A stretch of DNA of 64,000 nucleotides, from assembly GCA_026125795.1 (NCBI GenBank), contig JAHCKM010000002.1, positions 372,001 to 436,000 on the forward strand, in the 5' to 3' direction. The DNA is from Burkholderiaceae bacterium (GTDB taxonomy: Bacteria > Pseudomonadota > Gammaproteobacteria > Burkholderiales > Burkholderiaceae_C). The notes beneath the pieces are model-generated. The model saw only the letters and a list, made by a program, of their open reading frames with translations, was not told where the DNA came from and made no database searches. The position numbers and the translations under genes were made by a program. Below are positions 2 to 29,278 of the stretch, piece by piece (position 1 is the first letter of the stretch; each line of letters opens with the position of its first letter).

Positions 2-298
2 GCATTCGGCGCATCGCGCGACGAGGGTGCGCCAAAGGATCGGGCAGAAATCTGGGCCATCTATGTCAAGGCCGAATCTTGGTCCACTGGAGCCGGCCGT
101 CTGTTGTGGCTCGAGGCACTGCGGCGCATCGGGGCCGAGGCGTACAAGTCGGTCAGTCTTTGGGTCATCGCGGGCAACCAGCGCGCGGTACGGTTCTATG
201 AACGTGCAGGCTTTGTTGTCGAGCCGGAGTCGCGCAAGTCCTTTGAGCTTGGTGGCACTACGCTGGAAGAACTACGCTATGTCCGGCACGCGGGCTAA
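2..298 (+). CDS. GNAT N-acetyltransferase, 5'-truncated by window edge
   Basis: The last 98 residues of a GNAT acetyltransferase, cut by the left edge. The C-terminal half of the fold is visible (LWVIAGNQRAVRFYERAGF, the usual beta-alpha region after the acetyl-CoA loop). It is clearly homologous to the complete cassette protein at 12885-13397, with the same GGTTLEE-RYVR tail, so the two cassettes are paralogous. The TAA stop lies inside the attC R'' box. The substrate is unknown. Confidence 0.85.
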   Translation, partial: AFGASRDEGAPKDRAEIWAIYVKAESWSTGAGRLLWLEALRRIGAEAYKSVSLWVIAGNQRAVRFYERAGFVVEPESRKSFELGGTTLEELRYVRHAG

Positions 299-370
299 CC
301 CTTCGTTGCACCCGAAGTGCTACAGCGGGCTTCGCCCGCTTCCGCCCTCGGGTGAACTCAAACGTTAGCC
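293..370 (+). repeat. attC site 1
   Basis: 78-bp attC; R'' GGCTAAC, R' GTTAGCC; apical stem GCGGGC-TTC-GCCCGC (family A). Closes the first GNAT cassette. Confidence 0.95.
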
Positions 371-602
371 CGAAGCCGGGAATGCAAGCCAGTGCTCCAC
401 CAACACGGCGCGTGAAGCACAGAGCTTCTTGCCAGGTCGAGCACGCGCCTAGCGCATTCGAAGCAACACCGAGCCTTACCACGGTTCCTGCGCTGCGCGA
501 CCGTCCGCGCCGTCGGCGGTTGCTCTTGAGCCACCGCGTCTGGCAGAGTCCGCCCATGCTTCGAAGCACCGAGCGGCCCGCCAAAAGTCCTGCCCGGCCT
601 CG
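371..602 (+). other. ORF-less cassette body (family shared with 22562-22794)
   Basis: About 232 bp between two attC sites without a convincing gene. Open frames exist on both strands but have biased composition, no ribosome site, and only stay open by running through attC. It aligns along its length with the cassette at 22562-22794. The best conserved part encodes, if read on the plus strand, LRDRP-x(7)-LSHR-WQSP, with several third-position differences, so a short peptide or a structured RNA are both possible. Confidence 0.5.
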
Positions 603-680
603 GGCTAACCCGTCGTTGCACCCGACGGCCTACGGCTGGCTTCGCCAGCCTCCGTCCGCGGGTGAACTCCAACGTTAGGC
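603..680 (+). repeat. attC site 2
   Basis: 78 bp; R'' GGCTAAC, R' GTTAGGC; apical stem GGCTGGC-TTC-GCCAGCC (family C) with the GTCG/CTCCAACG arm variant. Confidence 0.95.
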
Positions 681-711
681 GTCACCGAACGAGCAATGAG
701 GAGAGTCACCA

Positions 712-924
712 ATGGCTGGAATGCTGCAGATCATCACGTACCTGCTTGCCTTTTACCTTGTCGTCAAAGGCGTCGAGATTCTCCAAATTGGCCTTGCATC
801 CAATCGGGAGAAGCGCATTGGTGTCATCGTCATTGGTGTAGTCACTTTGCTTCTTTGCATTGGTGCCGCCTTTGTCTTCACCACAATGCAGGATCAGCAA
901 GCCCGTTCAATAAGCTCAAGGTAG
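712..924 (+). CDS. Small two-TM membrane protein
   Basis: 70 residues with two hydrophobic helices (about 5-24 and 36-56) and a short polar tail. ATG follows a clear GAGGAG ribosome site at 699-704. It is the only gene of its cassette, and 92 bases of untranslated sequence separate its stop from the next attC, unlike most neighbours. No family recognised. Confidence 0.75.
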   Translation: MAGMLQIITYLLAFYLVVKGVEILQIGLASNREKRIGVIVIGVVTLLLCIGAAFVFTTMQDQQARSISSR

Positions 925-1016
925 CTACGGCCTGTTCTCGGCTCATTCAGCTGACGCCTGTTCAACCTGGACCGTGTACTTGAAAGGCATCCACGCCATG
1001 GCAGGCGCGCTGTGAC

Positions 1017-1094
1017 GCCTAACCCTTCGTTGCACCCGAATCGCTACAGCGGGCTTCGCCCGCTTCCGCCCTCGGGTGAACTCAAACGTTAGAC
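1017..1094 (+). repeat. attC site 3
   Basis: 78 bp; R'' GCCTAAC preceded by GTGAC that matches the start of the same cassette (GTTAGGCGTCAC); R' GTTAGAC; family A. Confidence 0.95.
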
Positions 1095-1408
1095 CGAATG
1101 GCCCTTCCACTGGCCAACGCTCAGCAAGGCCGCACTGCTCGCTGTCGGCGCTTGGCACCGAGCACGTCCACCAACGCGCGGGGCTACATCCCAGGGCGTC
1201 TTCTCGGAGCGCTGAAGAGCGCGCTTGCCGCGGGCCTGTCCGGCGGCCTTCTTGGTTTGCCGCGGTCTGCGCAGAGTGGCAGCATCGGCGGCATGCGAGC
1301 ATCGCCAATGCGGGCCATTCGGCCTAACGTGGGCCTCGGGACCGCAGGCTCAGTTTTGCGTGGCGTTTGGTTTGGGCGGCCGCTGTCGTGGTGTTCGCGG
1401 CCCACACG
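1095..1408 (+). other. Fused ORF-less cassettes with an attC deletion scar
   Basis: No supported gene. The left end (GTTAGACCGAATGGCCC from 1088) is complementary at 16 of 17 positions to 1311-1327, which ends in GGCCTAAC. That is the expected right end of this cassette, yet the attC hairpin after it is missing and unrelated sequence continues to the next attC. Two ORF-less cassettes therefore appear fused. Confidence 0.6.
1311..1335 (+). repeat. attC scar: R'' retained, hairpin deleted
   Basis: GGCCTAAC followed directly by GTGGGCC. The R'' box complements its own cassette start at 1088. The rest of the attC is gone, leaving a junction that could be R'' joined to a damaged R' (GT-GGGCC). 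Confidence 0.6.
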
Positions 1409-1486
1409 GCCTAACCCGTCGTTGGACCCGAATTGCTACAGCTGGCTTCGCCAGCCTCCGCAATCGGGTCAACTCCAACGTTAGCC
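1409..1486 (+). repeat. attC site 4
   Basis: 78 bp; R'' GCCTAAC, R' GTTAGCC; family C apical stem with GTCG/CTCCAACG arm variant; one base differs in the left arm (GTTGGACCC). Confidence 0.93.
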
Positions 1487-1499
1487 GGCGCATCCCGCG

Positions 1500-1889
1500 A
1501 TGGAGCTGCTTTTCTACGTTTTCGGGCCCATAGCTGTGCTTGGTGCCATCGCAGTTGCCATGGTCCCGTTCATCGTGGCTGGTGCTGCGCTTGCGACCGG
1601 TCGACCCATTGCGGCAGCGCTCGTCACTGCTTCCGCAGCTGGCTTTCTTGCGATCATGGTTCCTGTGGAGGTTGAGCAGTCTGGCAAGAGCGTCTTCTGG
1701 CCATGGCCACTCGCGATCGCGGTATTCCTCGGACGCGTCAGCTACTCAAACTGGGCTCAGGTCTATCAGTGGCTGCTCGTTGGCGGAGCCGCCGCTCTGG
1801 TTCTCGGCTTCGTAGGAGCGTTCATCGCAACGCGTGTGTTTGGAGTTGGGCGGTCATCGGCCAACAAGTCATCCCTTAGGCAGCGGTAG
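1500..1889 (+). CDS. Four-TM membrane protein
   Basis: 129 residues with about four hydrophobic segments (residues 5-30, 37-54, 66-85, 91-113) and a basic, Ser-rich tail. ATG lies 13 bases after the R' core with no clear ribosome site. It has small-residue-rich helices but no recognised family motif. Sole gene of its cassette. Confidence 0.75.
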   Translation: MELLFYVFGPIAVLGAIAVAMVPFIVAGAALATGRPIAAALVTASAAGFLAIMVPVEVEQSGKSVFWPWPLAIAVFLGRVSYSNWAQVYQWLLVGGAAALVLGFVGAFIATRVFGVGRSSANKSSLRQR

Positions 1890-1899
1890 TGCGCGCGCC

Positions 1900-1977
1900 G
1901 GCTAACCCTTCGTTGCACCCGAAGTGCTACAGCGGGCTTCGCCCGCTTCCGCACTCGGGTGAACTCAAACGTTAGGC
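1900..1977 (+). repeat. attC site 5
   Basis: 78 bp; R'' GGCTAAC, R' GTTAGGC; family A. The preceding GCGCC pairs with its own cassette start (GTTAGCCGGCGC). Confidence 0.95.
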
Positions 1978-1982
1978 CCCAC

Positions 1983-2528
1983 ATGAACCGCCGCGTCCTT
2001 CTTGCTGTTCTTGCAGCGTCGCTACCTACTGCTAGCATTCCGGCAGCGAGTAGCAGCATGACGCCAGAAGAGTTTGCCTCCATCGGTGCGGGCATATTCG
2101 AGTTCCCCATCGCGGGAAGCTTCGTCATCTCCAGCGGTGGAGGCGCCACGATCCTTGAGACCCCCGATGAATCCCGTCGCTACTACGTAGGCGCCTTCAG
2201 CAATGTCTCTGCGAGTCGCAGCGCCGAGTCGGGTGCCCAAGTTGCAAAGCTTGAGCAAGTCATAAGGGCATCTTGGGAGAACTTCGCCTCGTCCGAAAGA
2301 GGTACGGTCCGCGTTCCATTCAGCCGCGCGAGCGCAGGTGCACTGACCGTGTTCTTCATGGCAACCGAATTCACGCATAGCGGCCAGGTCCAGTACTACG
2401 TCCAGTACGCAGTAACCAACGGCCCCAGGTTCAGCACCATCTTTGCCGAGGGCCTTGGCCCAGCGCGGCCGGTGCATGACGAACTGCTTCCGCTCATACT
2501 GCGTGTCAAGGTCACAGGTGGGGCCTAA
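1983..2528 (+). CDS. Exported protein of unknown function
   Basis: 181 residues. A typical signal peptide (MNRR, hydrophobic core, cleavage likely near SIPAASS, residues 18-24) predicts export to the periplasm. The rest is soluble, alternating beta/alpha, with no Cys pairs or recognised catalytic motif. ATG is six bases after the R' core; the frame is also open back to a GTG in the attC, but the signal peptide supports the ATG. Stop TAA is in R''. Confidence 0.75.
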   Translation: MNRRVLLAVLAASLPTASIPAASSSMTPEEFASIGAGIFEFPIAGSFVISSGGGATILETPDESRRYYVGAFSNVSASRSAESGAQVAKLEQVIRASWENFASSERGTVRVPFSRASAGALTVFFMATEFTHSGQVQYYVQYAVTNGPRFSTIFAEGLGPARPVHDELLPLILRVKVTGGA

Positions 2529-2600
2529 CCCTTCGTTGCACCCGACCTGCTACAGCGGGCTTCGCCCGCTTCCGCAGGCGGGTGAACTCAAACGTTAGCC
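2523..2600 (+). repeat. attC site 6
   Basis: 78 bp; R'' GCCTAAC, R' GTTAGCC; family A with CCTGC/GCAGG upper stem. Confidence 0.95.
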
Positions 2601-2617
2601 CGCATGGAGGTGCCGCG

Positions 2618-3025
2618 ATGGTCTTCCGTTCGAAAGTCGATGCTTGGCTTGTCCTCGTTCTCGTAGCTGCCGCAGTCGTTGCTTTGGCTGCGGCTGGCGC
2701 AGCCTTTCGGCAAACCTCTGGCATGGCACTGCTCGCGCCTGTCGCCGTTGTCGCGATCGGCGCGGCCCTTCCTATCTGGATCCTCGTGTCCACGGCCTAT
2801 GTGGTCGAGAGCCGCACATTGCACATACGCAGCGGACCGTTCTCCTGGCGAATCCCTGTGTCGTCCATCACGAGCATCAAGCCCAGCCGCTCACCCATTT
2901 CAAGTCCTACTCTCTCGCTCAAGCGTCTGCGCGTGGAGTACGGAACGGGCAAGTCCATACTGGTATCGCCCGCTGATCAACAGGCGTTCATGCATGCGAT
3001 TGAAGGCGCGAAGAATGCGGGCTAA
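2618..3025 (+). CDS. Membrane protein with bacterial PH-like domain
   Basis: 135 residues: two N-terminal helices (about 9-32 and 40-62), then a cytosolic domain (about 65-130) with the pattern V-E-x-RTLHI-x-SGPFSWRIP-x-SSI-x-SIKPSRSP typical of bacterial PH-like domains found behind paired TM helices. ATG has a GGAGG seven bases upstream. The stop is the TAA of R''. Such proteins are membrane-associated but their ligands are mostly unknown. Confidence 0.75.
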   Translation: MVFRSKVDAWLVLVLVAAAVVALAAAGAAFRQTSGMALLAPVAVVAIGAALPIWILVSTAYVVESRTLHIRSGPFSWRIPVSSITSIKPSRSPISSPTLSLKRLRVEYGTGKSILVSPADQQAFMHAIEGAKNAG

Positions 3026-3097
3026 CCCTTCGCTGCACCCGAATCGCTACAGCGGGCTTCGCCCGCTTCCGCGATCGGGTGAGCTCAAACGTTAGGC
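3020..3097 (+). repeat. attC site 7
   Basis: 78 bp; R'' GGCTAAC, R' GTTAGGC; family A apex with the GCTGC/GAGCTC arm pairing instead of GTTGC/GAACTC. Confidence 0.95.
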
Positions 3098-3103
3098 AGC
3101 ACG

Positions 3104-3559
3104 GTGAAGATCCGCCGCTACACCAACGACGACTGGGTCCGGATCTGCCAAATCCATGATCTGGCTCGTAGAGATGAACTATTGTCCGCGGGACTCGCGG
3201 ATGCGTTCTTAACTATGGAGGAGACAGCCGAGAACGAAGGCTTCCACGACTACGATGTTTTGGTCGCAGAGGTGGATGGAGTCGTTCAAGGCTTTGCAGC
3301 GTACAGTGATGTTGAGCTTGCCTGGCTATATGTGGATCCGCGCTGTTATCGAATGGGTCTTGGCTTGTCCCTTGTCAAAGCATCGCTTCGTGCAACTGGT
3401 GTCCCGCTTTCGGTCGAAGTCCTCGACGGCAATGAAAGGGCACTTGCCTTGTATAAGAAGGCCGGTTTTGGTGTGGTTGGGCAAGCCAACGGGAGAATGC
3501 CGGGCAACGAGCGGTTTGCTGTCTCGGTAACAGAGCTGCGGTACAACGGTGCTGCCTAA
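3104..3559 (+). CDS. GNAT N-acetyltransferase (copy 1 of duplicated cassette)
   Basis: 151-residue complete GNAT protein. Visible features are beta4 (LAWLYVDPRCYRMGLG, the acetyl-CoA pyrophosphate loop RMGLGLSL at about residues 86-93) and the C-terminal NERALALYKKAGF block. GTG start seven bases after R'. A near-identical copy occupies 19192-19647 with the same start context and end. Likely acetylates a small molecule or peptide amine; substrate unknown. Confidence 0.9.
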   Translation: MKIRRYTNDDWVRICQIHDLARRDELLSAGLADAFLTMEETAENEGFHDYDVLVAEVDGVVQGFAAYSDVELAWLYVDPRCYRMGLGLSLVKASLRATGVPLSVEVLDGNERALALYKKAGFGVVGQANGRMPGNERFAVSVTELRYNGAA

Positions 3560-3631
3560 CCCTTCGTTGCACCCGACCTGCTACGGCTGGCTTCGCCAGC
3601 CTACGCAGGCGGGTGAACTCAAACGTTAGGC
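3554..3631 (+). repeat. attC site 8
   Basis: 78 bp; R'' GCCTAAC, R' GTTAGGC; family C apex but with GTTGC/GAACTC arms. The 12 bp before and in R'' mirror the cassette start GTTAGGCAGCAC. Confidence 0.95.
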
Positions 3632-3639
3632 GGTTAACT

Positions 3640-3903
3640 GTGATTGACGACCCCATCACTTCAGAGACCACAGAAGACCAACTGACGCCTCGCGAGGTGA
3701 AAGTCTACGGAGTCATTCACGGCGTAGCGGTAGTGCTTATGGTGTGCGGTTTTCTCTGGTATCTCGTGTTCAACATGGCGCCCGCAGGCCTTCTTCATGC
3801 CATCGCCTTCACTGCAATCACGGGAGTCATCATCGTGTTCGGGGTAGCGCTACGCAACAAGGTGCGCGTGATCCACGGTATTCGGTGGTTGCGGGGCCCA
3901 TGA
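3640..3903 (+). CDS. Small two-TM membrane protein
   Basis: 87 residues from GTG 3640: a polar head with acidic residues, then two hydrophobic helices (about 28-48 and 52-72) and a basic tail (RNKVRVIHGIRWLRG). The frame is open back to a GTG in the upstream attC at 3613, so the exact start is uncertain. No ribosome site is evident. No family recognised. Confidence 0.65.
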   Translation: MIDDPITSETTEDQLTPREVKVYGVIHGVAVVLMVCGFLWYLVFNMAPAGLLHAIAFTAITGVIIVFGVALRNKVRVIHGIRWLRGP

Positions 3904-3919
3904 GGACGTTGCGGCAACC

Positions 3920-3997
3920 GCCTAACCCGTCGTTGCACCCGACCTGCTACAGGCGGCTTCGCCGCCTTCCGCAGGCGGGTGAACTCCAACGTTAGGC
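3920..3997 (+). repeat. attC site 9
   Basis: 78 bp; R'' GCCTAAC, R' GTTAGGC; apical stem GGCGGC-TTC-GCCGCC (family D) with GTCG/CTCCAACG arms. Confidence 0.95.
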
Positions 3998-4460
3998 CGC
4001 TCGTTGCCGCGAAGTCGCGGGCTGTCCCGAGTTCCCTTTATCATTGCGGCGGGCGATCCGTCCTTGACCAACTTGTCGCGCAAACGGCGGGAGTCAACGG
4101 CGGACGCCGCCCCGGTGCGGTGGCAACCACGCCGTAAGGCGGTCAATTTGGGCTTGGCGATCTCGTGTTTGCGCACAAGGCATTCCCCTCGTTCAGAGTA
4201 GCCGCCAAAGCACGGCCACCTATTCCTGGCGGTCGCGCAGCGCTGCTGCGACTGCACGTTTCTGGTGTACTCCATGAAAGTGCAAATTGCAGTCCAAGCG
4301 GGGCGTTGGTTGAGGTTGTCGATCTCGGTAGCAATACCGGCTTCGTTGGCCTTGGCGCTTGTCCTGGCATTGGTGTAGTTGACGGCGGGCGGTTGCAGAA
4401 CCGCCCGCCCCAGCTGCAAAGCACCTCACTCCACCAAGCTTGCACGCCGGCTCGTCCGCG
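3998..4460 (+). other. Cassette body with no convincing gene
   Basis: 463 bp between two intact attC sites. Several open frames overlap on both strands, but none has a ribosome site plus plausible protein composition, and the longest (minus strand) runs into attC. Both ends carry the expected mutual complementarity, so the cassette itself is intact. Possibly a decayed gene or an RNA-coding cassette. Confidence 0.5.
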
Positions 4461-4543: not shown

Positions 4544-4978
4544 ATGTCAGAAACGTGGTACTGCCCATCGTGTCGGCGCCAGTTGCTGGACGGTGCGTCA
4601 TCCATGGAGTGTCCGAATTGCGGCGCAGACTTCGGTCCTCAAGCAGCTTGGGGGCCAGTGCAGAACGCACTGGGTCAATTCACGCCAAGGCCTCAAGCCG
4701 TGGTCGATGAGCCTCCGTCAATTGCCGGCGGCCTTGCGTTGGTCATCGCCAGACTCTTCATCGGCATTCCCATTTGGTTCGTCATTGCCATCCTCACCCT
4801 GCTTTCTGCTGTGCCATATGGCGGCGGCAGCCAAGGCATGTTTGCGTTTGCTGGTTTTGCAGCGGTATTCATCGTGCTATGGGCATGCATTCCCGTGCTA
4901 GAGGCGCTGCAGTATGTCGTCAAGCAACGTTTGAGCGCGAGATCATCATCGCCGGGTACAAAGAAGCGTGACGCCTAA
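4544..4978 (+). CDS. Zinc-ribbon membrane protein
   Basis: 144 residues. The N-terminal zinc ribbon has two CxxC knuckles (WYCPSCRRQ and MECPNCGAD, Cys at about 6, 9, 21, 24), followed by a Pro-rich linker and two TM helices (about 66-90 and 100-124), ending in a basic tail. ATG is five bases after R'; the complementary repeat of this cassette ends at the base before ATG. The stop is in R''. The role of the ribbon is unknown. Confidence 0.75.
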   Translation: MSETWYCPSCRRQLLDGASSMECPNCGADFGPQAAWGPVQNALGQFTPRPQAVVDEPPSIAGGLALVIARLFIGIPIWFVIAILTLLSAVPYGGGSQGMFAFAGFAAVFIVLWACIPVLEALQYVVKQRLSARSSSPGTKKRDA

Positions 4979-5050
4979 CCCTTCGTTGCACCCGAAGTGC
5001 TACAGCGGGCTTCGCCCGCTTGCGCACTCGGGTGAACTCAAACGTTAGAC
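4973..5050 (+). repeat. attC site 11
   Basis: 78 bp; R'' GCCTAAC, R' GTTAGAC; family A. Confidence 0.95.
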
Positions 5051-5055
5051 CCCCC

Positions 5056-5406
5056 ATGGACATTCGAGTCCGTCAATGGGAGAAGCTCAAGTACCTCGAC
5101 AGCGAGAAGATCTTGCGAGGTCTACGGAAGATTCAGGAAGCCAATCCCCTGCACGAGCTTCCATACCATGTCGCATCACTTCGCCGGCGGGATCTGTGGA
5201 CCTATGCGGAAGGGCGGCAAGCTGCCTTGTTCTGCTACGCACTGTCGAGGTTCGACGGCATTCCCGTTTCCTTTGCGCAGGTTGAAGCCAGTGACTACGA
5301 CATCATTGCTCGCTATGTGCGAGACGAGGTTGCTCACTACGTCCCGGTCCAGCTGAAAGGAACTCGTGCCCGACCAAGTCAACCCATACGCCGACCTCCA
5401 AACTGA
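5056..5406 (+). CDS. Hypothetical protein, probable N-terminal part of a frameshifted gene
   Basis: 116 residues, soluble, alpha-helical, with PYHVASLRRRDLWTYAEGRQ near the middle. ATG five bases after R'. After about residue 102 (VPVQLK) the reading frame looks wrong: reading AAA at 5356-5358 as AA would continue as QLKELVPDQVNPYADL, joining smoothly to the next ORF. I infer a one-base insertion that splits one gene of about 190 codons. A programmed frameshift or a coupled pair remain possible. Confidence 0.6.
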   Translation: MDIRVRQWEKLKYLDSEKILRGLRKIQEANPLHELPYHVASLRRRDLWTYAEGRQAALFCYALSRFDGIPVSFAQVEASDYDIIARYVRDEVAHYVPVQLKGTRARPSQPIRRPPN

Positions 5407-5629
5407 GCTGGACAAGATTGCCAAGTACGTGGACTCCCGTGATCTTGCTGTGGCGTTCCATCTGAACACGACACGACGCATCGAGTTCTCTAACCTACGC
5501 ATGCCTGTGGGCAAGGTCGGCGAGTTGTGGTTCTACGGAGCCACATCCCAAGACCAGCACTGGGTTCTCGTCGGCAACATGCTGTCTACCAAGAGGTATG
5601 CACTTGAGTTTAGGCATCCGGGGGTCTAA
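5366..5629 (+). CDS. Hypothetical protein, probable C-terminal part of the same split gene
   Basis: 87 residues from GTG 5366, overlapping the previous ORF by 41 bases in the next frame. It contains DLQTELDKIAKYVDSRDLAVAFHL and a Trp-rich beta segment (GELWFYGATSQDQHWVLVGN). AAAGGA at 5356-5361 could act as a ribosome site for a separate start, which would make the pair translationally coupled. TAA lies in R''. No family recognised. Confidence 0.6.
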   Translation: MPDQVNPYADLQTELDKIAKYVDSRDLAVAFHLNTTRRIEFSNLRMPVGKVGELWFYGATSQDQHWVLVGNMLSTKRYALEFRHPGV

Positions 5630-5701
5630 CCCTTCGCTGCACCCGAAGTGCAACAGCCGGCTTCGCCGTCTGTCGCACTCGGGTGAGCTCAAACGTTAGG
5701 C
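5624..5701 (+). repeat. attC site 12
   Basis: 78 bp; R'' GTCTAAC, R' GTTAGGC; family B-like apex with mismatches (CCGGC/GCCGTC) and GCTGC/GAGCTC arms. R'' covaries with its cassette start GTTAGAC. Confidence 0.93.
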
Positions 5702-5727
5702 CGCACGCAACATCGGGAGCCGCTCAG

Positions 5728-6141
5728 GTGCCAATGGAGAAATCGGTCGCCGCAGAAAATCCTGACGCCTATGTTGCCTCGCTCAGCAGTTGGCAGAGGC
5801 AGTATGTGGAAGCCCTGCGATCAGCTGTTGTCAGCACTGCTTCTCTGCAAGAGGTCGTCAAATGGGGTCACCTGGTCTACTTCTCGAACGGTCCGGTTCT
5901 TCTCATCCGGGCTGAGCAACGGCGCGTGCTCTTCGGGTTCTGGCGAGGCAAGAGCCTGCGTAGCATTGAGCCTCGTCTGAAGCCTGGCGGCAAATACGAG
6001 ATGGCCACACTCGTGCTCCTTGAGCAAACGCCACTGGAACGCTCAACGGTACTTGAGCTGGTCCGTGAGGCGGTAGCGCTCAACGCATCCCGTGGTGACC
6101 CCACGAAACTCAATGCTGGGAGCGTCGCCCGTGCGGCCTAA
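5728..6141 (+). CDS. DUF1801 (YdhG-like) protein
   Basis: 137 residues with the DUF1801 pattern: an N-terminal helix (Y-V-A-S-L-S-S-W-Q-R), the VVKWGHLVYFSNGPVLLIRAEQRRVLFGFWRGKSL block, and a helical C-terminus. The fold resembles frataxin-like domains; no enzyme activity is known. GTG 5728 is preferred (GGGAG at 5715-5719, 8 bases away); ATG 5734 is the alternative. Two further DUF1801 genes lie on the chromosomal side at 44244-45088. Confidence 0.8.
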   Translation: MPMEKSVAAENPDAYVASLSSWQRQYVEALRSAVVSTASLQEVVKWGHLVYFSNGPVLLIRAEQRRVLFGFWRGKSLRSIEPRLKPGGKYEMATLVLLEQTPLERSTVLELVREAVALNASRGDPTKLNAGSVARAA

Positions 6142-6213
6142 CCCTTCGTTGCACCCGAAGTGCTACAGCGGGCTTCGCCCGCTTGCGCACTCGGGTGAAC
6201 TCAAACGTTAGGT
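6136..6213 (+). repeat. attC site 13
   Basis: 78 bp; R'' GCCTAAC, R' GTTAGGT (the only GGT variant, matched by ACCTAAC at the other end of the next cassette); family A. Confidence 0.95.
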
Positions 6214-6276
6214 TGCTCGCGCACTCCGATGGTCTAATGGTGGCGGGCAAGGTCCGTTTTGGAGGCGAACCCGTTC

Positions 6277-6928: not shown

Positions 6929-7025
6929 ACCATACCCGTCATCACTCAGTTGGTGTGATAATCACACGGACCGGCACGTCTGTCAAGTGCTGTGTAAAAG
7001 TAATTGCTAGCCAGATGACCAAGCA

Positions 7026-7103
7026 ACCTAACCCGTCGTTGCACCCGACGTGCTACGGCTGGCTTCGCCAGCCTCCGCCCGCGGGTGAACTCCAACGTTA
7101 GGC
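7026..7103 (+). repeat. attC site 14
   Basis: 78 bp; R'' ACCTAAC complementing its cassette start GTTAGGT; R' GTTAGGC; family C with GTCG/CTCCAACG arms. Confidence 0.95.
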
Positions 7104-11334: not shown

Positions 11335-11406
11335 CCCCTCGTTGCACCCGAAGTGCTACAGCGGGCTTCGCCCGCTTGCGCACTCGGGTGAACTCAAACG
11401 TTAGGC
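11329..11406 (+). repeat. attC site 23
   Basis: 78 bp; R'' GCCTAAC, R' GTTAGGC; family A; CCCCTCG in place of CCCTTCG. Confidence 0.95.
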
Positions 11407-11443
11407 GCCCCAACTAGGACGGTTTGACCGACAGGAGGCCACT

Positions 11444-11785
11444 ATCCTCTTTGCCATCGCTAGCACGATCTTCTGGTTCTCATATCTCGTCGTCTGCCCC
11501 TTGACGACACTTGTGCTCATATGCGTTTCTGCCTTTGCAGCCAAATCACTTCGCTCAGCGCTCGCCCGGAGCTTGCTTGTCTTACCTCTGCTGGTGTTGC
11601 TGCTTGGCCCGGTGTGGACGGAACTTGGTCCAATGTCGTGGTGGCTTCCATACACCGATAGTCATTTCGTCTCCAGGACCGGAGCCACGTATTTCGTTTG
11701 GCCTTACGCTGCCGCCTGCGCAGCACTGCAAGCCACTCTCCTTGCCACCAGGCTTCTCTTTCACCTACGCCGCGGGGGCGCCTAA
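11444..11785 (+). CDS. Three-TM membrane protein, start codon apparently ATC
   Basis: The frame is open from 11405 but has no ATG, GTG or TTG until TTG 11501, which would cut the first hydrophobic segment. A perfect AGGAGG (11433-11438) sits five bases before ATC 11444, giving 113 residues with three hydrophobic segments. I infer an ATG-to-ATC change or true use of ATC. If TTG 11501 is used the protein has 94 residues. Unknown family. Confidence 0.55.
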   Translation: MLFAIASTIFWFSYLVVCPLTTLVLICVSAFAAKSLRSALARSLLVLPLLVLLLGPVWTELGPMSWWLPYTDSHFVSRTGATYFVWPYAAACAALQATLLATRLLFHLRRGGA

Positions 11786-11857
11786 CCCTTCGTTCCACCC
11801 GAAGTGCTACAGCGGGCTTCGCCCGCTTTCGCACTCGGGTGAACTCAAACGTTAGGC
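11780..11857 (+). repeat. attC site 24
   Basis: 78 bp; R'' GCCTAAC, R' GTTAGGC; family A with GTTCC in place of GTTGC in the left arm. Confidence 0.94.
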
Positions 11858-12806: not shown

Positions 12807-12878
12807 CCCTTCGTTGCACCCGAAGTGCTACAGCGGGCTTCGCCCGCTTCCGCCCTCGGGTGAGCTCAAACGTTAGGC
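12801..12878 (+). repeat. attC site 26
   Basis: 78 bp; R'' GCCTAAC, R' GTTAGGC; family A with hybrid arms (GTTGC left, GAGCTC right). Confidence 0.95.
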
Positions 12879-12884
12879 GGCGGC

Positions 12885-13397
12885 ATGCAGATTGAGCCTG
12901 CTACTGCGGAAGACTGCCATGCAGTTGCGCAGGTGCACGTCGAGTCATGGCAGCACGCGTACAAGGCCTTCCTGCCGGCGGACTATCTCGCTTCCCTATC
13001 TGTCTCTCAGCGCGCTGCCGGGTGGTGTCGCATGGTTGAGCGCTTCCCAAAGCACCTCTTACTCGCCCGCAGCGCAGGCCAGGTCGTTGGCTTCGTTGCC
13101 TTTGGCGCATCACGCGACGAAGGAGCGCCTGCCGGTCGTGCGGAGGTCTTCGCCATCTATGTCAAGCCTGGATCTTGGTCGGCCGGCGTGGGCCAGCAAC
13201 TGCTGCCCGCAGCACTGCAGCAGCTTCGCGCGGAAGGGTACCAATCAGTGAGTCTATGGGTCATAGCAGGCAATGAGCGCGCCATCAAGTTCTATGAACG
13301 CGCAGGTTTCGTCGCGGAGCCACAGTCGCGCAAGCAGTTCGAGCTCGGTGGCACAACGCTGGAAGAGGTCCGCTATGTTCGCGTCACCGCCGCCTAA
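12885..13397 (+). CDS. GNAT N-acetyltransferase
   Basis: 170-residue complete GNAT protein: N-terminal IEPATAEDCHAVAQVHVESWQHAYKAFLP (a frequent N-terminal signature of this subgroup), FAIYVKPGSWSAGVGQQLL with the acetyl-CoA loop, and SLWVIAGNERAIKFYERAGF. Homologous to the truncated gene at the left edge of the window. ATG six bases after R'. TAA in R''. Substrate unknown. Confidence 0.9.
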   Translation: MQIEPATAEDCHAVAQVHVESWQHAYKAFLPADYLASLSVSQRAAGWCRMVERFPKHLLLARSAGQVVGFVAFGASRDEGAPAGRAEVFAIYVKPGSWSAGVGQQLLPAALQQLRAEGYQSVSLWVIAGNERAIKFYERAGFVAEPQSRKQFELGGTTLEEVRYVRVTAA

Positions 13398-13469
13398 CCC
13401 TTCGCTGCACCCGAAGTGCAACAGCTGGCTTCGCCAGCTGTCGCCCTCGGGTGAACTCAAACGTTAGGC
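13392..13469 (+). repeat. attC site 27
   Basis: 78 bp; R'' GCCTAAC, R' GTTAGGC; family B with hybrid arms (GCTGC left, GAACTC right). Confidence 0.95.
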
Positions 13470-22489: not shown

Positions 22490-22561
22490 CCCTTCGTTGC
22501 ACCCGACCTGCTACGGCTGGCTTCGCCAGCCTCCGCAGGCGGGTGAACTCAAACGTTAGCC
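22484..22561 (+). repeat. attC site 45
   Basis: 78 bp; R'' GCCTAAC, R' GTTAGCC; family C apex with CCTGC/GCAGG stem. Confidence 0.95.
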
Positions 22562-22794
22562 CGCAGCCGGGAATACAGGCCCAGTCGCATGCAGCAACGG
22601 CGCGCGAACCACCGAGCTGCACGCAAGACTGAGCGCGCGCCTTGCCGCGTGAAAGTAGCACCGAGCGGTGCGGCGGCTGTCGTGCTTCGCGATCGTCCGT
22701 GCCGTTCGCAATTGCGCTTGAGCCATCGCCTCTGGCAAAGTCCGCGCGTGTCCACATACACCGAGCTCTGCGCAGCAAGTGTTGCCCGGCCGCG
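22562..22794 (+). other. ORF-less cassette body, second member of family at 371-602
   Basis: About 233 bp homologous to 371-602, with the same start (GTTAGCCCG-AGCCGGGAAT) and the same end motif. No gene with a ribosome site is seen. Conservation between the two copies runs from end to end, which suggests selection or a fairly recent shared origin. Confidence 0.5.
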
Positions 22795-22872
22795 GGCTAA
22801 CCCGTCGTTGCACCCGACCTGCTACAGCGGGCTTCGCCCGCTTCCGCAGGCGGGTGAACTCCAACGTTAGAC
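22795..22872 (+). repeat. attC site 46
   Basis: 78 bp; R'' GGCTAAC, R' GTTAGAC; family A apex with GTCG/CTCCAACG arms. Confidence 0.95.
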
Positions 22873-24770: not shown

Positions 24771-24842
24771 CCCTTCGTTGCACCCGAATGGCTACAGCGG
24801 GCTTCGCCCGCTTCCGCTATCGGGTGAACTCAAACGTTAGGC
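24765..24842 (+). repeat. attC site 49
   Basis: 78 bp; R'' GTCTAAC matching its start GTTAGAC; R' GTTAGGC; family A with ATGGC/GCTAT stem. Confidence 0.94.
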
Positions 24843-24845
24843 GTC

Positions 24846-25350
24846 ATGGCCCATCCCGAGAGCGACCCGTTTTGTCATTCAGAAGAAGCTGCACGCAGCC
24901 TTCTCTGATGTTCGCCTTGGCTCCGGAATCAGCATTCGCCAATCTGTCGCCATCGACGCCTACGGTGAGGGACACACCGATGAGTCGTTTGCCGCACTTC
25001 CGCAGACGGAGGTCACAGATGACTGGAGCTCCATACCTGACAGCGAACTCGAGCAGATCGCGGTCGCTCATCTCGATGCGGAGGGTTTTCGCTACTACAT
25101 TCCGGCGCTCGCGCTCAGCATCCTGCGGGACTATCAGTCAGTCTCCATGCGTGTCATCGGCACGATCTCTGGTCTCTGCCCTAAGCCGCAGACGTGGTCC
25201 TACAGCGTGCAGCAGTACACCGCTCTCACCGAATCGCAGAAGAGCGCGATCGCGTTTTTTCTTGCCAAGCTTCCGTCGGTAGTTGACAGCGAGGATGCCA
25301 CTTGCGTTGAACGGGCACTTCGCAACTACTGGTCTCACTACGCAAGATGA
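24846..25350 (+). pseudogene. DUF6714-like gene with +1 frameshift near the start
   Basis: ATG 24846 (in the usual position after R') gives MAHPESDPF and then goes out of frame at a TTTT run (24870-24873). Reading TTT restores MAHPESDP-FVIQKKLHAAFSDVRLGSGISIRQSVAIDAYG and a full-length frame to TGA 25350 (FRYYIPALALSILRDY, TESQKSAIAFFLAKL), which resembles DUF6714. The intact frame has no other start codon before 25147. About 167 codons if repaired. Confidence 0.7.
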
Positions 25351-25351
25351 C

Positions 25352-25429
25352 GCCTAACCCTTCGTTGCACCCGAAGTGCTACAGCGGGCTTCGCCCGCTT
25401 TCGCACTCGGGTGAACTCAAACGTTAGGC
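25352..25429 (+). repeat. attC site 50
   Basis: 78 bp; R'' GCCTAAC, R' GTTAGGC; family A. The preceding ATGAC mirrors the cassette start GTTAGGCGTCAT. Confidence 0.95.
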
Positions 25430-25435
25430 CGCACG

Positions 25436-26101
25436 ATGACTGCTCTTCAGCAGTTCAACCGCAATGTCGATGCTTCCGACAAGCTGGTTCACATGTATCG
25501 GCAGCTGCGCGGCTTCCGGAATCTTGGTGCGCGAGGCCGACTCGACGCACAGAACCAAGATCTTCTGTGGCTACCGCGATCCGCTGTCGTTGCAGCAATC
25601 TCTGCGCTCGACACCTACGTCCACAGCGTCGTCAAGGAGCGGCTTCCACGTCAGTTTGGTGCAGGCATAGTCGTGCCAGAGTCGCTTGCTGAGCAGTTGT
25701 CCCAGCTCATGCCGGTCAGAAACGCAAATACCTTCCGGCAAGCCGTGCCGCTGCTCCTCGCCAACGACACACTGCCCCAGCTTCTCAAGAAACTGGAAGA
25801 AAACTTCCTGCAGTTTCAGTCCTACCAAGCCCCGGAGAAGATCATCGAAGCCTACCGACTCATCGGTATCGAGAATGTCTTCGAACCGGTCTCCGATCTA
25901 TGGCCAGGCCCAAACACAACAGCCGAGCACTTGAGGCGTCGTCTCGCTGGGTACGTGCAGCGGCGCAACCAGATCGCCCACGAGGGCGACCTTGAGGCCA
26001 ATGGGCAACAACGTCCTATGCAACCTGAGTACGCAGTCGAGTGCCGCGACTTCGTGGGTTCTCTAGTAACTCGTTTGAACCAGGTCGTGTATGCGGCCTA
26101 A
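25436..26101 (+). CDS. HEPN-domain protein (RiboL-PSP-HEPN type)
   Basis: 221 residues, all-helical. The C-terminal part has the HEPN RNase-type motif R-x4-H as RRNQIAHEGD (about residues 183-192); the N-terminal part (WLPRSAVVAAISALDTYVHSVVKERL) matches the start of RiboL-PSP-HEPN proteins. HEPN proteins with this motif are often RNases in toxin or antiviral systems. Here it is alone, with no visible MNT or other antitoxin in the cassette. ATG six bases after R'; TAA in R''. Confidence 0.8.
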   Translation: MTALQQFNRNVDASDKLVHMYRQLRGFRNLGARGRLDAQNQDLLWLPRSAVVAAISALDTYVHSVVKERLPRQFGAGIVVPESLAEQLSQLMPVRNANTFRQAVPLLLANDTLPQLLKKLEENFLQFQSYQAPEKIIEAYRLIGIENVFEPVSDLWPGPNTTAEHLRRRLAGYVQRRNQIAHEGDLEANGQQRPMQPEYAVECRDFVGSLVTRLNQVVYAA

Positions 26102-26173
26102 CCCCTCGCTGCACCCGAAGTGCAACAGCTGGCTTCGCCAGCTGCTGCCCTCGGGTGAGCTCAAACGTTGGGC
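26096..26173 (+). repeat. attC site 51
   Basis: 78 bp; R'' GCCTAAC, R' GTTGGGC; family B with GCTGC/GAGCTC arms. Confidence 0.95.
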
Positions 26174-26257
26174 GTAACGCAAGGCGTGATAGTCGCAGCG
26201 AAGTGCGCTCGTCTGCGGCGCCCGCGCGTGGCAGTAGGCTGCTGATATGCTCGCGTC

Positions 26258-26446
26258 GTGAAAGTTGGAGAAGTTCTCCGCCTGCTCCAGGCCGATGGCT
26301 GATATCTTGTAGCCACGCGCGGCAGCCATCGCCAGTTCAAGCATGCAAGTAAACCCGGTCGCGCTACTGTGCCTGGCAAAGCGAGTGATGATCTCGCTCC
26401 GGGTACGCTCAATAGCATTCTCAAGCAGTCTGGTCTGAAGTCGTGA
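26258..26446 (+). pseudogene. hicA: hicA toxin gene inactivated by a nonsense codon
   Basis: From GTG 26258 the frame reads VKVGEVLRLLQADG, then TGA (26300-26302) where HicA proteins have Trp, then YLVATRGSHRQFKHASKPGRATVPG and a complete C-terminus to TGA 26446. A single TGG-to-TGA change explains it. The GSH catalytic motif is downstream of the stop. The antitoxin gene after it is intact. Confidence 0.85.
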
Positions 26447-26452
26447 GGTCGT

Positions 26453-26665
26453 ATGCGCTATGCCATCGTGATTGAGAAAGCCGAAGGCAACTACTCCGCC
26501 TACGTTCCCGATCTACCGGGTTGCGTAGCTACGGGCGCGACAGTTGTAGAGGTAGAGAGCCAGATTCGTGAGGCCATTGCCTTTCATGTCGAGGGTTTGC
26601 GCGAAGACGGTGTACCGATCCCAGCTCCGTCGAGCCAGGTTGAGTACATCGACGTTGCCCCTTAG
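26453..26665 (+). CDS. hicB: HicB-family antitoxin (module 3)
   Basis: 70 residues: MRYAIVIEKAEGNYSAYVPDLPGCVATGATVVEVESQIREAIAFHVEGLREDGVPIPAPSSQVEYIDV, the canonical HicB core. It follows the broken hicA by six bases in toxin-first order. It may remain as an orphan antitoxin able to counter related HicA toxins. Confidence 0.9.
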   Translation: MRYAIVIEKAEGNYSAYVPDLPGCVATGATVVEVESQIREAIAFHVEGLREDGVPIPAPSSQVEYIDVAP

Positions 26666-26684
26666 TGGCAACGGTGGGCTTTAC

Positions 26685-26740
26685 GCCCAACCCTTCGGGC
26701 TTCGCCCGCTTCCGCGAGCGGGTGAACTCAAACGTTAGGC
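26685..26740 (+). repeat. attC site 52, internally deleted
   Basis: 56 bp; R'' GCCCAAC and R' GTTAGGC kept, but 22 bases of the left arm are missing, leaving CCCTTCGGGCTTCGCCC. It may still fold a short hairpin. Confidence 0.85.
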
Positions 26741-26775
26741 AGCGCCAACAGCCAGACTGCGCATCGCCAACGATC

Positions 26776-27255
26776 ATGGTCACCGTCCGCCATCGATTCG
26801 AGTCGCCCGACACAACGCAAACACTGGCCGAGGCGCTCAGTGAGTACCTTGCTGCCAACCCATTGCTCAAGCGTGAGTCGGACCTGCAATCTCCCGAGGC
26901 GCGGCAGTTCTTCCGCTCACACGATGTCGTTCACGTTGTGTACGGCTGCGGCACATCATTGCTTGATGAATCCATCGTCAAGCTTTCCAGCATCTTCGGT
27001 ACAACGGGAGGCATTCGGGTGCTGCGAGGCTACGCGCCCCACGAGACACTTGATATCTATCGCAAGCTGCCAGTTCTCGGTAGTCTGCACGCATTCCTGG
27101 CGGCACCGTACATGATCCTGCGCACCGTGTGGCGGTGCATGGCGCAGTCCAAGCGCTGGCCATGGGATCAGTACGATGCATTCCTCAATGTGCCCCTGCG
27201 CGAAGTACGGGCGCAGTTCCGCATCAAGGTTGCACATGAACGCGGCGCTGCCTAA
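26776..27255 (+). CDS. Possible Coq4-like protein
   Basis: 159 residues, helical. The segment RQFFRSHDVVHVVYGCGTSLLDESIVKLSSIFGTTGG resembles the HDxxH...E metal/quinone motif region of Coq4-family proteins (ubiquinone biosynthesis), but the overall match is weak. ATG 36 bases after R'; TAA in R''. Treat as hypothetical with a possible link to Coq4. Confidence 0.6.
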   Translation: MVTVRHRFESPDTTQTLAEALSEYLAANPLLKRESDLQSPEARQFFRSHDVVHVVYGCGTSLLDESIVKLSSIFGTTGGIRVLRGYAPHETLDIYRKLPVLGSLHAFLAAPYMILRTVWRCMAQSKRWPWDQYDAFLNVPLREVRAQFRIKVAHERGAA

Positions 27256-27327
27256 CCCTTCGTTGCACCCGAAGTCCTACAGCGGGCTTCGCCCGCTTGC
27301 GCACTCGGGTGAACTCAAACGTTAGGC
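27250..27327 (+). repeat. attC site 53
   Basis: 78 bp; R'' GCCTAAC, R' GTTAGGC; family A with AAGTCC left stem mismatch. Confidence 0.94.
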
Positions 27328-27373
27328 CACGCGAATGCCGCTGGCTGGGGCACGACGCTTGCCGCGTTAATTC

Positions 27374-27862
27374 ATGACTCTTCGGGTGCATATTGCCGTC
27401 GCATTGACTCTTGCCGCTTTGGGCCTGGTTCCGGGAGCCGCGCACTTGATGGAACTCCCGGTCAAGTTGACCTATTCGCCCGAGTTGTACGCTGAGGTCA
27501 CCAGCACGCTTTACGCTTGGTATGGCATTGCGGGCGGAGCCGCTCAAGTCGGTGCGGCGTTCATAGTCGCACTCCTGGCTGCCCGAGTCAGGCACTCGTC
27601 ATCGGCAGGACTTGCACTCGCAACTGCTGCCACCTTTATCATTTCGCTGGTTCTTTGGGGCGCCGTTGTCAGTCCGGTCAATTCAGCTTGGGCAGAAGTC
27701 TCTCGTGCCAATCCGGGCGAACTCGCGTCTGCATATGCGCGTCTGCGCGGCCGGTGGGAGTTCGGCCATCTTGCGGCGTTCATCGCGTGGTTCACCGGCT
27801 GGCTTGGCCTTGTGGCATTGGCAACCCGCTGGCCGGTCGTGGACCCAAAGAGCGCGGCCTAA
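27374..27862 (+). CDS. Four-TM membrane protein (DUF1772-like)
   Basis: 162 residues with TM helices about 6-27, 46-70, 77-100 and 136-154. The layout, with the conserved polar loop WGAVVSPVNSAWAEVSRANPGELASAYARLRGRWEFGH before the last helix, resembles DUF1772 proteins. ATG is 46 bases after R'; no strong ribosome site. TAA in R''. Function unknown. Confidence 0.72.
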   Translation: MTLRVHIAVALTLAALGLVPGAAHLMELPVKLTYSPELYAEVTSTLYAWYGIAGGAAQVGAAFIVALLAARVRHSSSAGLALATAATFIISLVLWGAVVSPVNSAWAEVSRANPGELASAYARLRGRWEFGHLAAFIAWFTGWLGLVALATRWPVVDPKSAA

Positions 27863-27934
27863 CCCTTCGTTGCGCCCGAAGTGCTACAGCGGGCTTCGCC
27901 CGCTTCCGCACGCGGGTGAATGCAAACGTTAGAC
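27857..27934 (+). repeat. attC site 54
   Basis: 78 bp; R'' GCCTAAC, R' GTTAGAC; family A; arms GTTGCGCCCG / CGCGGGTGAATGC. Confidence 0.93.
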
Positions 27935-27955
27935 CGCACGCCGCCGATCAGCGCG

Positions 27956-28414
27956 ATGCCGATCCCCGCAAACCTTCAGCGCTTCTGGAACGCGTTTGCT
28001 TCTGCGAGCGGTGAGCCGGATGATTCCCGCTTCCTCGAAGCGTTCGCCTTCGGCGACAGCGAGAGTCTTGCCAATGAGCTAGCAGCGTTGGTGCTGCAAG
28101 GGGTCAAGCGCGCAACCGCGGGATCTCTCTGGGCCATACAAGCTGAAGGCAAGCAGCTTCAAAAGCCCGGCGACCTCAGCATCGTCACCAATTGGGGTGG
28201 CCAGCCGCTGTGCATCATCGAAACGGAGGCCGTTGAGATCGTGCCCTTCCGTGAGGTTACCGCTGAGTTTGCGGCAGCAGAAGGCGAGGGTGACTCGTCG
28301 CTATCCTTCTGGCGTGCTGCCCACACCGAGGCCTTCACCCGTGAGTGCAGTCGCATCGGCCGAGCATTCGAGCAGACAATGCCTGTTGTTTGTGAACGCT
28401 TCCGAGTCGTGTAG
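27956..28414 (+). CDS. ASCH-domain protein
   Basis: 152 residues: VLQGVKRATAGSLWAIQAEGKQLQKPGDLSIVTNWGGQPLCIIETEAVEIVPFREVTAEFAAAEGEGDSSLSFWRAAHTEAFTRECSRIGR, the ASCH fold (PUA-related, RNA-binding-like), with the conserved K-x-AT and GD motifs. Known members include amidohydrolases acting on acetylated nucleosides; role here unknown. ATG 22 bases after R'. Confidence 0.88.
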   Translation: MPIPANLQRFWNAFASASGEPDDSRFLEAFAFGDSESLANELAALVLQGVKRATAGSLWAIQAEGKQLQKPGDLSIVTNWGGQPLCIIETEAVEIVPFREVTAEFAAAEGEGDSSLSFWRAAHTEAFTRECSRIGRAFEQTMPVVCERFRVV

Positions 28415-28423
28415 CCAAGTGCG

Positions 28424-28501
28424 GTCTAACCCTTCGTTGCACCCGAAGTGCTACAGCGGGCTTCGCCCGCTTCCGCAATCGGATGAACTCAAACGTTAGG
28501 C
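28424..28501 (+). repeat. attC site 55
   Basis: 78 bp; R'' GTCTAAC matching its start GTTAGAC; R' GTTAGGC; family A; CGGATGAACTC right arm. R' also supplies the stop codon of the next, inverted gene. Confidence 0.94.
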
Positions 28502-28891
28502 ATCAGAGAGCCCGACCGCGCGCGCTCCGAAAGCCTTGCACAGTTTGGCGTCTGCGGAAACCAGCTTCACGTCTAGATGCTCGGCCAGCGCCACATACTC
28601 GCAGTCGTATGCGGAGCTGCCGCTGTCCTTCGCTAGCCGAAGCACGGCCATGGCAGACACGTCGTACTCATTGCCGGCCAGCAGGCCTTCAGCTCTCCGG
28701 TGAATGGTCATTGCATCATCCAGCGAGAGCAGCTTTTGGCGCATGTATGTCGCCAGAATGCTGCGGAACTCGCTGCGCCAGAGTCGAGGTACAGCCCAAT
28801 CAGGCTCTCGCAATAGCAGGTCTTCTGCCTGCTCGCTGTACTTACCGGGCAAGTACAGGTACGCCACTAGGTTCACGTCGGCTACTATCAC
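28496..28891 (-). CDS. PIN-domain toxin (VapC/FitB-like)
   Basis: 131 residues from GTG 28891: IVADVNLVAYLYLPG with the first catalytic Asp, WRSEFRSILATYM (acidic residue), SSAYDCEYVALAEHLDVKLVSADAKLCKAF with the further Asp residues of the PIN nuclease site. Expected RNase activity. Its TAA stop is the complement of the TTA in the attC R' box, mirroring how forward genes stop in R''. Overlaps its antitoxin by four bases. Confidence 0.88.
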   Translation of the reverse strand: MIVADVNLVAYLYLPGKYSEQAEDLLLREPDWAVPRLWRSEFRSILATYMRQKLLSLDDAMTIHRRAEGLLAGNEYDVSAMAVLRLAKDSGSSAYDCEYVALAEHLDVKLVSADAKLCKAFGARAVGLSDA

Positions 28892-29133
28892 GAACGCCCC
28901 AAGCGCTTGAATCGGTCTATGTCCTCCGGCTTGAATGCGCCTCGCTTCAGGGAGAGTCTGACCTCTCGCGCCTTGGCCAAGTGCTCCAGCGCCGTGGTCT
29001 TCTTTGGCAACAGCACCGTCTCCAAGCAAGCTATCGCTTCGCTGTTCAAGCTGCGTCGGTTCGCCTCTGCCGAAGACCGCAGTTGTTCATACACGTCGTC
29101 GGGGATGCCTTTCAAGGTAATCGTCGTGGGCAT
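28888..29133 (-). CDS. Ribbon-helix-helix antitoxin (FitA/VapB-like)
   Basis: 81 residues: MPTTITLKGIPDDVYEQLRSSAEANRRSLNSEAIACLETVL is an Arc-type ribbon-helix-helix of FitA/StbC antitoxins, followed by a toxin-binding tail. ATG 29133 has GGAG eight bases ahead on the minus strand. It probably represses the operon through the palindrome at 29153-29169. Confidence 0.85.
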   Translation of the reverse strand: MPTTITLKGIPDDVYEQLRSSAEANRRSLNSEAIACLETVLLPKKTTALEHLAKAREVRLSLKRGAFKPEDIDRFKRLGRS

Positions 29134-29152
29134 ACGCTGCTCCAGCTGCAAT

Positions 29153-29169
29153 GGAACCATTATGGTTCC
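29153..29169. promoter_or_regulatory. 17-bp palindromic operator of the minus-strand TA pair
   Basis: GGAACCATTATGGTTCC is a perfect palindrome around a central T. On the minus strand it contains CATAAT, a -10-like hexamer, 20 bases before the antitoxin ATG. Confidence 0.65.
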
Positions 29170-29200
29170 GCTAGCTTCCGGCAGTCAAGCTGAGCGTGAT

Positions 29201-29278
29201 GCCTAACCCTTCGTTGCCCCCGAATGTCTACAGCGGGCTTGGCCCGCTTCCGCGATCGGGTGAGCTCAAACGTTAAAC
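29201..29278 (+). repeat. attC site 56
   Basis: 78 bp; R'' GCCTAAC, R' GTTAAAC; family A with apical mismatch (GGGCTTGGCCC) and hybrid arms. Confidence 0.92.

Follow-up and report, generated by a model that had tools for sequence, protein, structure and literature searches.

The attC sites of integrons carry the boxes R''-L''-L'-R' and fold into a bottom-strand hairpin, and it is established that the first bases of a cassette complement R'' within the R box. So far, integron sites have been described by a 7-bp R box followed by whatever comes next. A box of this length is used in the available passages of PMC2727003, PMC2674596, and PMC5371416, and the last of these notes, in its available passages, that pairing of the variable 4 bp of R' with R'' is not required in the array. 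Here we analysed a window of 64,000 nucleotides from a Burkholderiaceae bacterium (contig C2:372001-436000 of the 6.57 Mb genome G000), which sits within a long integron cassette array. The array has 75 attC sites and 74 cassettes and covers C2:366328-411729; 12 of the 75 sites lie upstream of the window in the same contig. Its sites are in tandem and closely spaced, with R'' RYYYAAC and R' GTTRRRY around a bottom-strand hairpin, and the length from R'' to R' is 78 bp in 72 of the 75. Segments between consecutive sites measure 243-1090 nt in 72 of 74 cases, and missed attC sites probably lie within the remaining two (1903 and 3384 nt). The known complementarity between the first six cassette bases and the cassette's own R'' was also found, with 215 of 222 matches at positions 5-7 and fractions of.91-.96 at positions 2-4. 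The main result of this work is that the pairing runs beyond the R box, up to base 12, with letters that are private to each cassette.

The comparison was made between the first bases of each of the 74 cassettes, counted from the G of GTT, and the reverse complement of the bases ending at R''; no length limit was applied, and the two long segments were kept. At positions 8-12 the two ends of the same cassette matched in fractions of.86,.91,.93,.78, and.72, against.32,.44,.73,.37, and.39 for all other cassette pairs. The junctions between neighbouring cassettes (.26,.41,.73,.38, and.29) were no better than shuffled pairs. In total there were 311 matches out of 370 versus 168.6 ± 7.7 expected by permutation, a number reached in 0 of 2000 shuffles. 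From position 13 onward the match was at chance (.27 own against.23), and at positions 13-17 the 101 matches out of 370, with 94.5 expected, were reached in 454 of 2000 shuffles. Redundancy among homologous cassettes was discarded as the source of the signal, which survives with one cassette per family (282/335 versus 150.9 expected at positions 8-12). Over the 12 bases 38 of the 74 cassettes are perfect, 18 have one mismatch, and 18 have two or more.

An earlier sequence-only reading of this DNA had proposed that each cassette carries a private terminal inverted repeat of 10-13 bp which exists only between its own ends and not across array junctions. Both the extension past the R box and its restriction to own ends are borne out by these counts; the loose range of lengths is not, and the edge is at 12, that is, the G plus 11 cassette bases. 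The same reading stated that bases 8-9 vary between cassettes and that CAC often follows. It is right that C predominates at position 10 (86% and 84% at the two ends) and that 11 and 12 lean to A and C, so that the private letters are mainly positions 8, 9, and 11 and partly 6 and 12. The five cassettes it quoted as examples were located in the window, all on the + strand. The 5' arm GTTAGGCGTCAC (674..685) pairs over 12 of 12 bases with the 3' arm GTGACGCCTAAC of the same cassette (1012..1023), which contains R'', and the same is seen for GTTAGGCAGCAC (3091..3102) with GTGCTGCCTAAC (3549..3560) and for GTTAGGCGCCCC (11400..11411) with GGGGCGCCTAAC (11775..11786). The other two have arms of 11 bases, paired over 11 of 11 and mismatched at position 12: GTTAGACCCCC (5044..5054) with GGGGGTCTAAC (5620..5630), and GTTAGGTTGCT (6207..6217) with AGCAACCTAAC (7022..7032).

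A pattern search of 150 genomes of the family to which the window belongs gave further large arrays with longer attC sites, of about 130 bp by eye in examples from G499 and G459. The attC finder used for G499, G459, and G509 reads each site as it is placed in the array and is blind to own pairing; it yielded 219, 171, and 111 cassettes (110 of the latter unique). The own match at positions 8-12 was.93,.91,.96,.95, and.94 in G499,.94,.97,.97,.91, and.84 in G459, and.98,.78,.94,.87, and.83 in the 110 unique cassettes of G509, falling at position 13 to.08,.09, and.05, respectively. These last values are below one in four because the top-strand base there is mostly a purine at both ends, so that in these three arrays the stem ends in a purine-purine clash at 13, a dip that the window array (.27) does not have. 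When one cassette per homology family was taken in five genomes (G000, G499, G459, G509, and G466), pairing ran to exactly 12 in 296 of 443 representatives, to 13 in 20, and to 14 in 2. In the family analyses G000 contributed 73 cassettes, the last being left out, and cassette length limits were 150-2600, 150-1500, or 150-1200 nt depending on the analysis; the 9 cassettes of G466, a genome from the genus of the window, were too similar and too small in number. Regarding base use in the large arrays, position 9 is nearly free in G499, position 10 is C in 84-97%, position 11 is mostly A or G, and position 12 mostly C. At position 8 few of the bases are T (2-8% at either end in G499, G459, G509, and G000), without evident reason.

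Two repeats of G499 were noted at the arms. In all 5 cassettes of its cluster (joined positions 56646, 68585, 84521, 104915, and 126774) one starts exactly at cassette base 13, where the 12-bp 5' arm has just ended, and its open reading frame (ORF) resembles that of an IS30-type transposase. The other, of about 1.29 kb and present in 6 cassettes, ends about 2-4 bases (by eye) inside the 3' arm of different cassettes. Swapping of ends, which near-identical bodies with different paired ends in G499 could have indicated, was rejected: most such cases are insertion sequence-type repeats inserted in different cassettes.

The sequence-only reading had suggested a repeat on other sedentary arrays, and in one Vibrio array the pairing beyond the R box is present with an edge at 9-11. 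The first finders applied to Vibrio gave 15 and 20 cassettes, and a Vibrio-specific one gave 144 in G532. In this array positions 5-9 are both private and paired (.97,.97,.95,.88, and.88 against.53,.44,.44,.30, and.29), and at positions 10-12 the own match is.58,.51, and.25 against about.3, which makes 10 and 11 about half private and leaves 12 at chance. Another Vibrio genome, G544, with 14 usable cassettes, is similar but noisy. The edge of the stem thus differs by lineage, being at 12 in the family of the window and at 9-11 in the Vibrio array. Composition or a shared consensus was rejected as an explanation, since own pairs beat within-array shuffles at 8, 9, 11, and 12 in G000, G499, G459, and G509, and at 8-11, not at 12, in the Vibrio array. 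Pairing with the neighbour was rejected as well, since it was no higher than in shuffled pairs in any of the window array, G499, G459, and G532.

Outside the large arrays the attC finders, which are simple, miss or invent sites, and the signals are weaker. In 128 cassettes pooled from 32 loci found by integrase searches there were 315 matches out of 640 at positions 8-12 versus 217.2 (0 of 1000 shuffles), and no significant excess at 13-17 (172/640 versus 159.6). This set is diluted by false attC calls and includes a few loci with weak matches to the integrase, and many integrase-linked stretches had no usable array. Eight plasmid regions with class 1 integrons gave 12 rows, several of them spanning missed attC sites, with matches over 12 bases of 12 (aac(6')-Ib, twice), 10 (an aadA type), 9, 9, and 8, and six of 5-7. 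In one of these plasmids (NZ_CP087162.1, locus L200, 8123-8834) the first cassette starts with letters like those of the 3' conserved segment and matches its own 3' end at 5 of 12 bases, as if its 5' end had been replaced.

The strand on which the pairing takes place can be approached through the mismatches, considering that, where a transition mismatch forms a G-T wobble in one strand, the complementary strand has A-C. We counted them in 317 of 403 distinct end pairs (those with at least 9 of 12 matching) and, for Vibrio, in 113 of 124 (at least 7 of 9). At positions 5-12 there were 78 bottom-strand and 26 top-strand G-T mismatches, with another 158 transversions; shuffled composition predicts 56% bottom wobble, which gives a p of 4e-5. 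Polarised within families, the changes were 11 bottom and 1 top, with 6 transversions and 1 double change, while the same kinds of change in cassette bodies numbered 534 and 602 (p.0017 against the polarised 11:1). Vibrio showed 25 bottom and 6 top at positions 5-11, with 58% bottom expected; the bias was weak in G499 (8 versus 5). Integron arrays are transcribed in the top-strand sense, and in that respect the pairing could act in RNA, as a stem joining the cassette ends in the messenger RNA, or else in double-stranded DNA as a symmetric protein site. The excess of bottom wobble argues against both: a sense RNA would tolerate top-strand G-U, the opposite of what is seen (78 versus 26, and 25 versus 6 in Vibrio), and a double-stranded site predicts no strand bias. 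We hold this explanation to be very improbable. Integrases, according to the passages of PMC2727003, recombine the bottom strand. Folding of the attC bottom strand, also proposed by the sequence-only reading, was carried out for the 67 cassettes upstream of the last 7. The predicted hairpin had -36.2 kcal/mol when the site was joined to the start of its own cassette, compared with -30.7 for the neighbour in the array and -31.3 for another cassette taken at random. It was more stable with the own start than with the neighbour in 61 of the 67.

A further question is whether the two arms are maintained. The rates were compared in the 35 of 57 families with more than 5% body divergence, leaving out only pairs longer than 900 nt at 95% identity or more. 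The difference per site was.085 in arms,.264 in flanks (positions 14-18), and.163 in bodies; the arm was lower than the flank in 25 families and higher in 2, and lower than the body in 28 and higher in 7. In a 27-member family of G499, whose bodies are 69-99.8% identical, 26 members have kept GTTAGGCACCGC at the two ends. The second proposal of the sequence-only reading, in which cassettes are born by the copying of one end onto the other, would give private matching ends at once, and the sharp edge could be its copy tract. As the whole explanation, with no later maintenance, it is nonetheless insufficient because the pairing persists as flanks and body diverge: 26 of 27 members keep both arms in a family diverged to 69% identity, arms differ less than bodies in those 28 of 35 families, and the strand bias of the mismatches is left unexplained. 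It is thus very improbable on its own, and it may have been the origin of the matching ends.

Changes on both arms give another view of the same maintenance. Among 16 family-positions with such changes, the arms are complementary in the two homologues at 13, found in 7 of the 60 families; duplicates and cassettes bearing large near-identical inserts, 13 in all, were left out. This count was used in place of a pair-level one (31/34 in the 60-95% identity bins), which is pseudo-replicated, and supersedes an earlier stricter count of 2/61 families in which one insert-bearing family was included. Two cases can be seen in the window, both with + strand arms. The cassette with 5' arm GTTAGGCGGCGG (12872..12883) and 3' arm CCGCCGCCTAAC (13387..13398) has a 71% identical homologue at -221 to 299 with 5' arm GTTAGCCCGCAT; positions 6, 8, and 12 are changed on both arms and paired in both cassettes. 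Likewise, the cassette with 5' arm GTTAGCCCGAAG (364..375) and 3' arm at 598..609 has a homologue with 5' arm GTTAGCCCGCAG (22555..22566) and 3' arm at 22790..22801. Between them position 10 is changed on both arms (A to C) and paired in both cassettes, and position 11 is mismatched in the same way in the two, as a bottom-strand G-T. Such double changes would be produced in one step by repair or template switching that copies one arm onto the other in the folded circle, without selection, and the 13 of 16 are what this would yield. Under such correction, though, we would expect the arms to co-evolve near the neutral rate, and they change about three times less than the flanks; it predicts neither the bottom-wobble excess nor the common edge at 12, and we consider it improbable.

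The pairing also follows the state of the attC site. The window array consists of a part with mostly intact 78-bp sites (293..29278, + strand, delimited by attC location and pattern matches) and a downstream part (29705..39729, + strand), as the sites past about 29.7 kb are decayed. Matches at positions 8-12 were 246/275 in cassettes whose own attC deviates by 0-1, 28/35 where it deviates by 2-3, and 37/60 where it deviates by 4 or more. From 29776 on, where the final 7 cassettes adjoin decayed sites, they were 18/35, and own-end pairing is largely lost. The distal 29705-39729 stretch, full of attC sites that are truncated or carry point mutations, is a useful neutral comparison.

Taken together, these results indicate that, once a cassette is excised and the bottom strand of its attC folds, the outer arm is a stem of 9-12 bp whose letters are private to the cassette and which selection maintains. 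In the mechanism that we propose, R'' meets the start of the next cassette in the array and its own start only after excision; in the circular form, the start of the cassette (typically G plus TTAGGCNNCRC) would pair with the 12 bases that end with R''. The folded site would then have a continuous R arm of 12 bp (9-11 in Vibrio) and not a 7-bp R box, and we take the latter to be the sequence-conserved part of the longer arm. Outward from the cleavage point (G|TT) the arm would measure 11 bp, and about 11 bp is the half site of one tyrosine recombinase monomer. The integrase would need the entire arm double-stranded, mainly through backbone contacts; letters 8, 9, and 11 might drift if both ends change together, and 1-7, 10, and 12 would also carry sequence preference. 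A solved IntI complex, 2a3v, is listed in the PDB, and in the passages of PMC2727003 the DNA interface of the crystal structure consists almost entirely of nonspecific phosphate contacts, which would explain a need for pairing without fixed letters. Selection would keep the pairing because cassettes survive by reinsertion from the circle. We infer that the integrase footprint sets the edge of the stem and that integration from the circle, not excision, is the selected step. The first proposal of the sequence-only reading, an outer stem selected in the circular form, agrees with the conservation of the arms, the compensation, the loss in decayed sites, and the bottom G-T bias; the part of circle integration is inferred. 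A private stem required by the integrase and kept by selection through reinsertion is, in our judgement from these sequences, probably the explanation.

Several observations weigh against it. In the window 36 of 74 cassettes tolerate at least one mismatch within the first 12 bases. A fixed mismatch at position 9 (T against G) is present in 13 of 14 members of a G509 family, in which it is evidently tolerated, and another at position 8 in a 4-member family of G499. Compensatory events are few and one-sided changes commoner: drawing one random pair per family gave means per draw of 21.7 one-sided, 8.0 compensated, and 1.0 other double changes. The unpaired flanks are also rich in bottom wobble from composition (989 versus 577, 63%), and against them the p of 78:26 rises to.006; the polarised 11:1 is a small count that may include changes shared by descent. 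The pooled set tapers (.68,.57,.50,.43, and.28 over positions 8-12), giving a softer edge outside the big arrays, the class 1 sample is small and mixed, with its 12 rows, and the Vibrio edge at 9-11 means that one fixed footprint cannot account for all lineages. Moreover, several of the tests draw on the same cassettes.

The same selection could act at another step. Own-arm pairing may form by strand exchange on cutting out exactly one cassette, in which case it would stabilise this product and favour single over block excision. With R'' facing the next cassette in the array, excision makes the predicted hairpin more stable by about 5.5 kcal/mol. In section 8 of PMC12901181 a cassette in the tandem attCaadB-aadB-attCaadB was excised at 97%, significantly above attCsat2-aadB-attCaadB; we read the upstream attC of this tandem as fully own-paired, which is consistent with the excision variant and not decisive, as the whole attC sites of the tandem are identical and the effect of the arm is confounded. 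Neighbouring cassettes, besides, do not avoid equal labels in the window array, G499, or G459, where the junctions match as shuffled pairs do. We regard this variant as unlikely, and integration and single-cassette excision as the selected step cannot be told apart from sequence. A related idea, also unlikely and put forward only tentatively, is that the private letters are an address label, the attC being weakly paired beside a stranger and becoming a full substrate only next to its own start. If so, mismatched junctions would keep arrays quiet, circles and tandem copies would be highly active, and single-cassette excision would be favoured.

With respect to the genomic setting, the TIGR02249 profile has six matches in G000, of which one is above the cut-off (464.6 bits, C1:125162-126109) and corresponds to a full-length IntI gene. 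The profile search of the genome found no integrase match adjoining the array, and no attC site was found in the 20 kb surrounding the C1 gene (about 9-10 kb each side). A complete integron was not seen, the integrase being on contig C1 and the array on C2; no search was made for attI. The array, with at least two attC sites and the integrase not nearby, is consequently a CALIN, a cluster of attC sites without an adjacent integrase (term in the available part of PMC7923331). On the integrase-gene strand (locus L014) an overlapping open frame of 792 codons runs in another reading frame, and the antisense is also open for 316 codons; both are probably an effect of high guanine-cytosine content. 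Far from the main array, a few attC sites of the same type, some truncated, lie at about 4600-6100 of locus L013 (G000:C1:1880001-1892000), perhaps as a stray insertion. At 28495-29207 of the window there is a cassette ORF antiparallel to the array that resembles, by eye, a PIN-domain toxin-antitoxin pair.

In the open-access literature that was searched, which leaves out most subscription papers, no mention of pairing past the R box was found, and an earlier report may exist; there is no statement of it in the available passages of PMC2727003, PMC2674596, PMC3053210, PMC3518468, PMC5371416, PMC8352920, PMC8618304, PMC9410878, PMC11641012, and PMC12901181. If the working arm is of 9-12 bp and partly private, the activity of an attC site would depend on the neighbouring cassette. 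The circle and array forms of one site are predicted to be about 5 kcal/mol apart, and rates obtained in different contexts may not compare directly. With the label, true cassette ends could be recognised easily, as could dead cassettes and those that have been reshuffled or fused. It also constrains models of cassette birth, in which a new cassette must acquire, or evolve, matching ends.

By comparison with the systems already described, this array resembles other attC sites in the RYYYAAC and GTTRRRY boxes, in the hairpin, and in the complementarity between the own R'' and the first cassette bases; it departs from them in that the pairing reaches base 12 (9-11 in Vibrio) with private letters and then stops, whereas the described sites use the 7-bp R box. 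With respect to CALIN no difference was seen, the array lacking an adjacent integrase and the IntI gene being on another contig. It shares with the chromosomal cassette arrays of Vibrio the private own-end pairing, although in Vibrio the edge is at 9-11 and the R-box positions 5-7 are private too. Finally, the arm is similar to the half sites of tyrosine recombinases such as XerC/XerD and Cre, extending about 11 bp outward from the cleavage point. Those half sites are ordinary duplex, while here the full duplex would form only in the folded strand of the excised circle.

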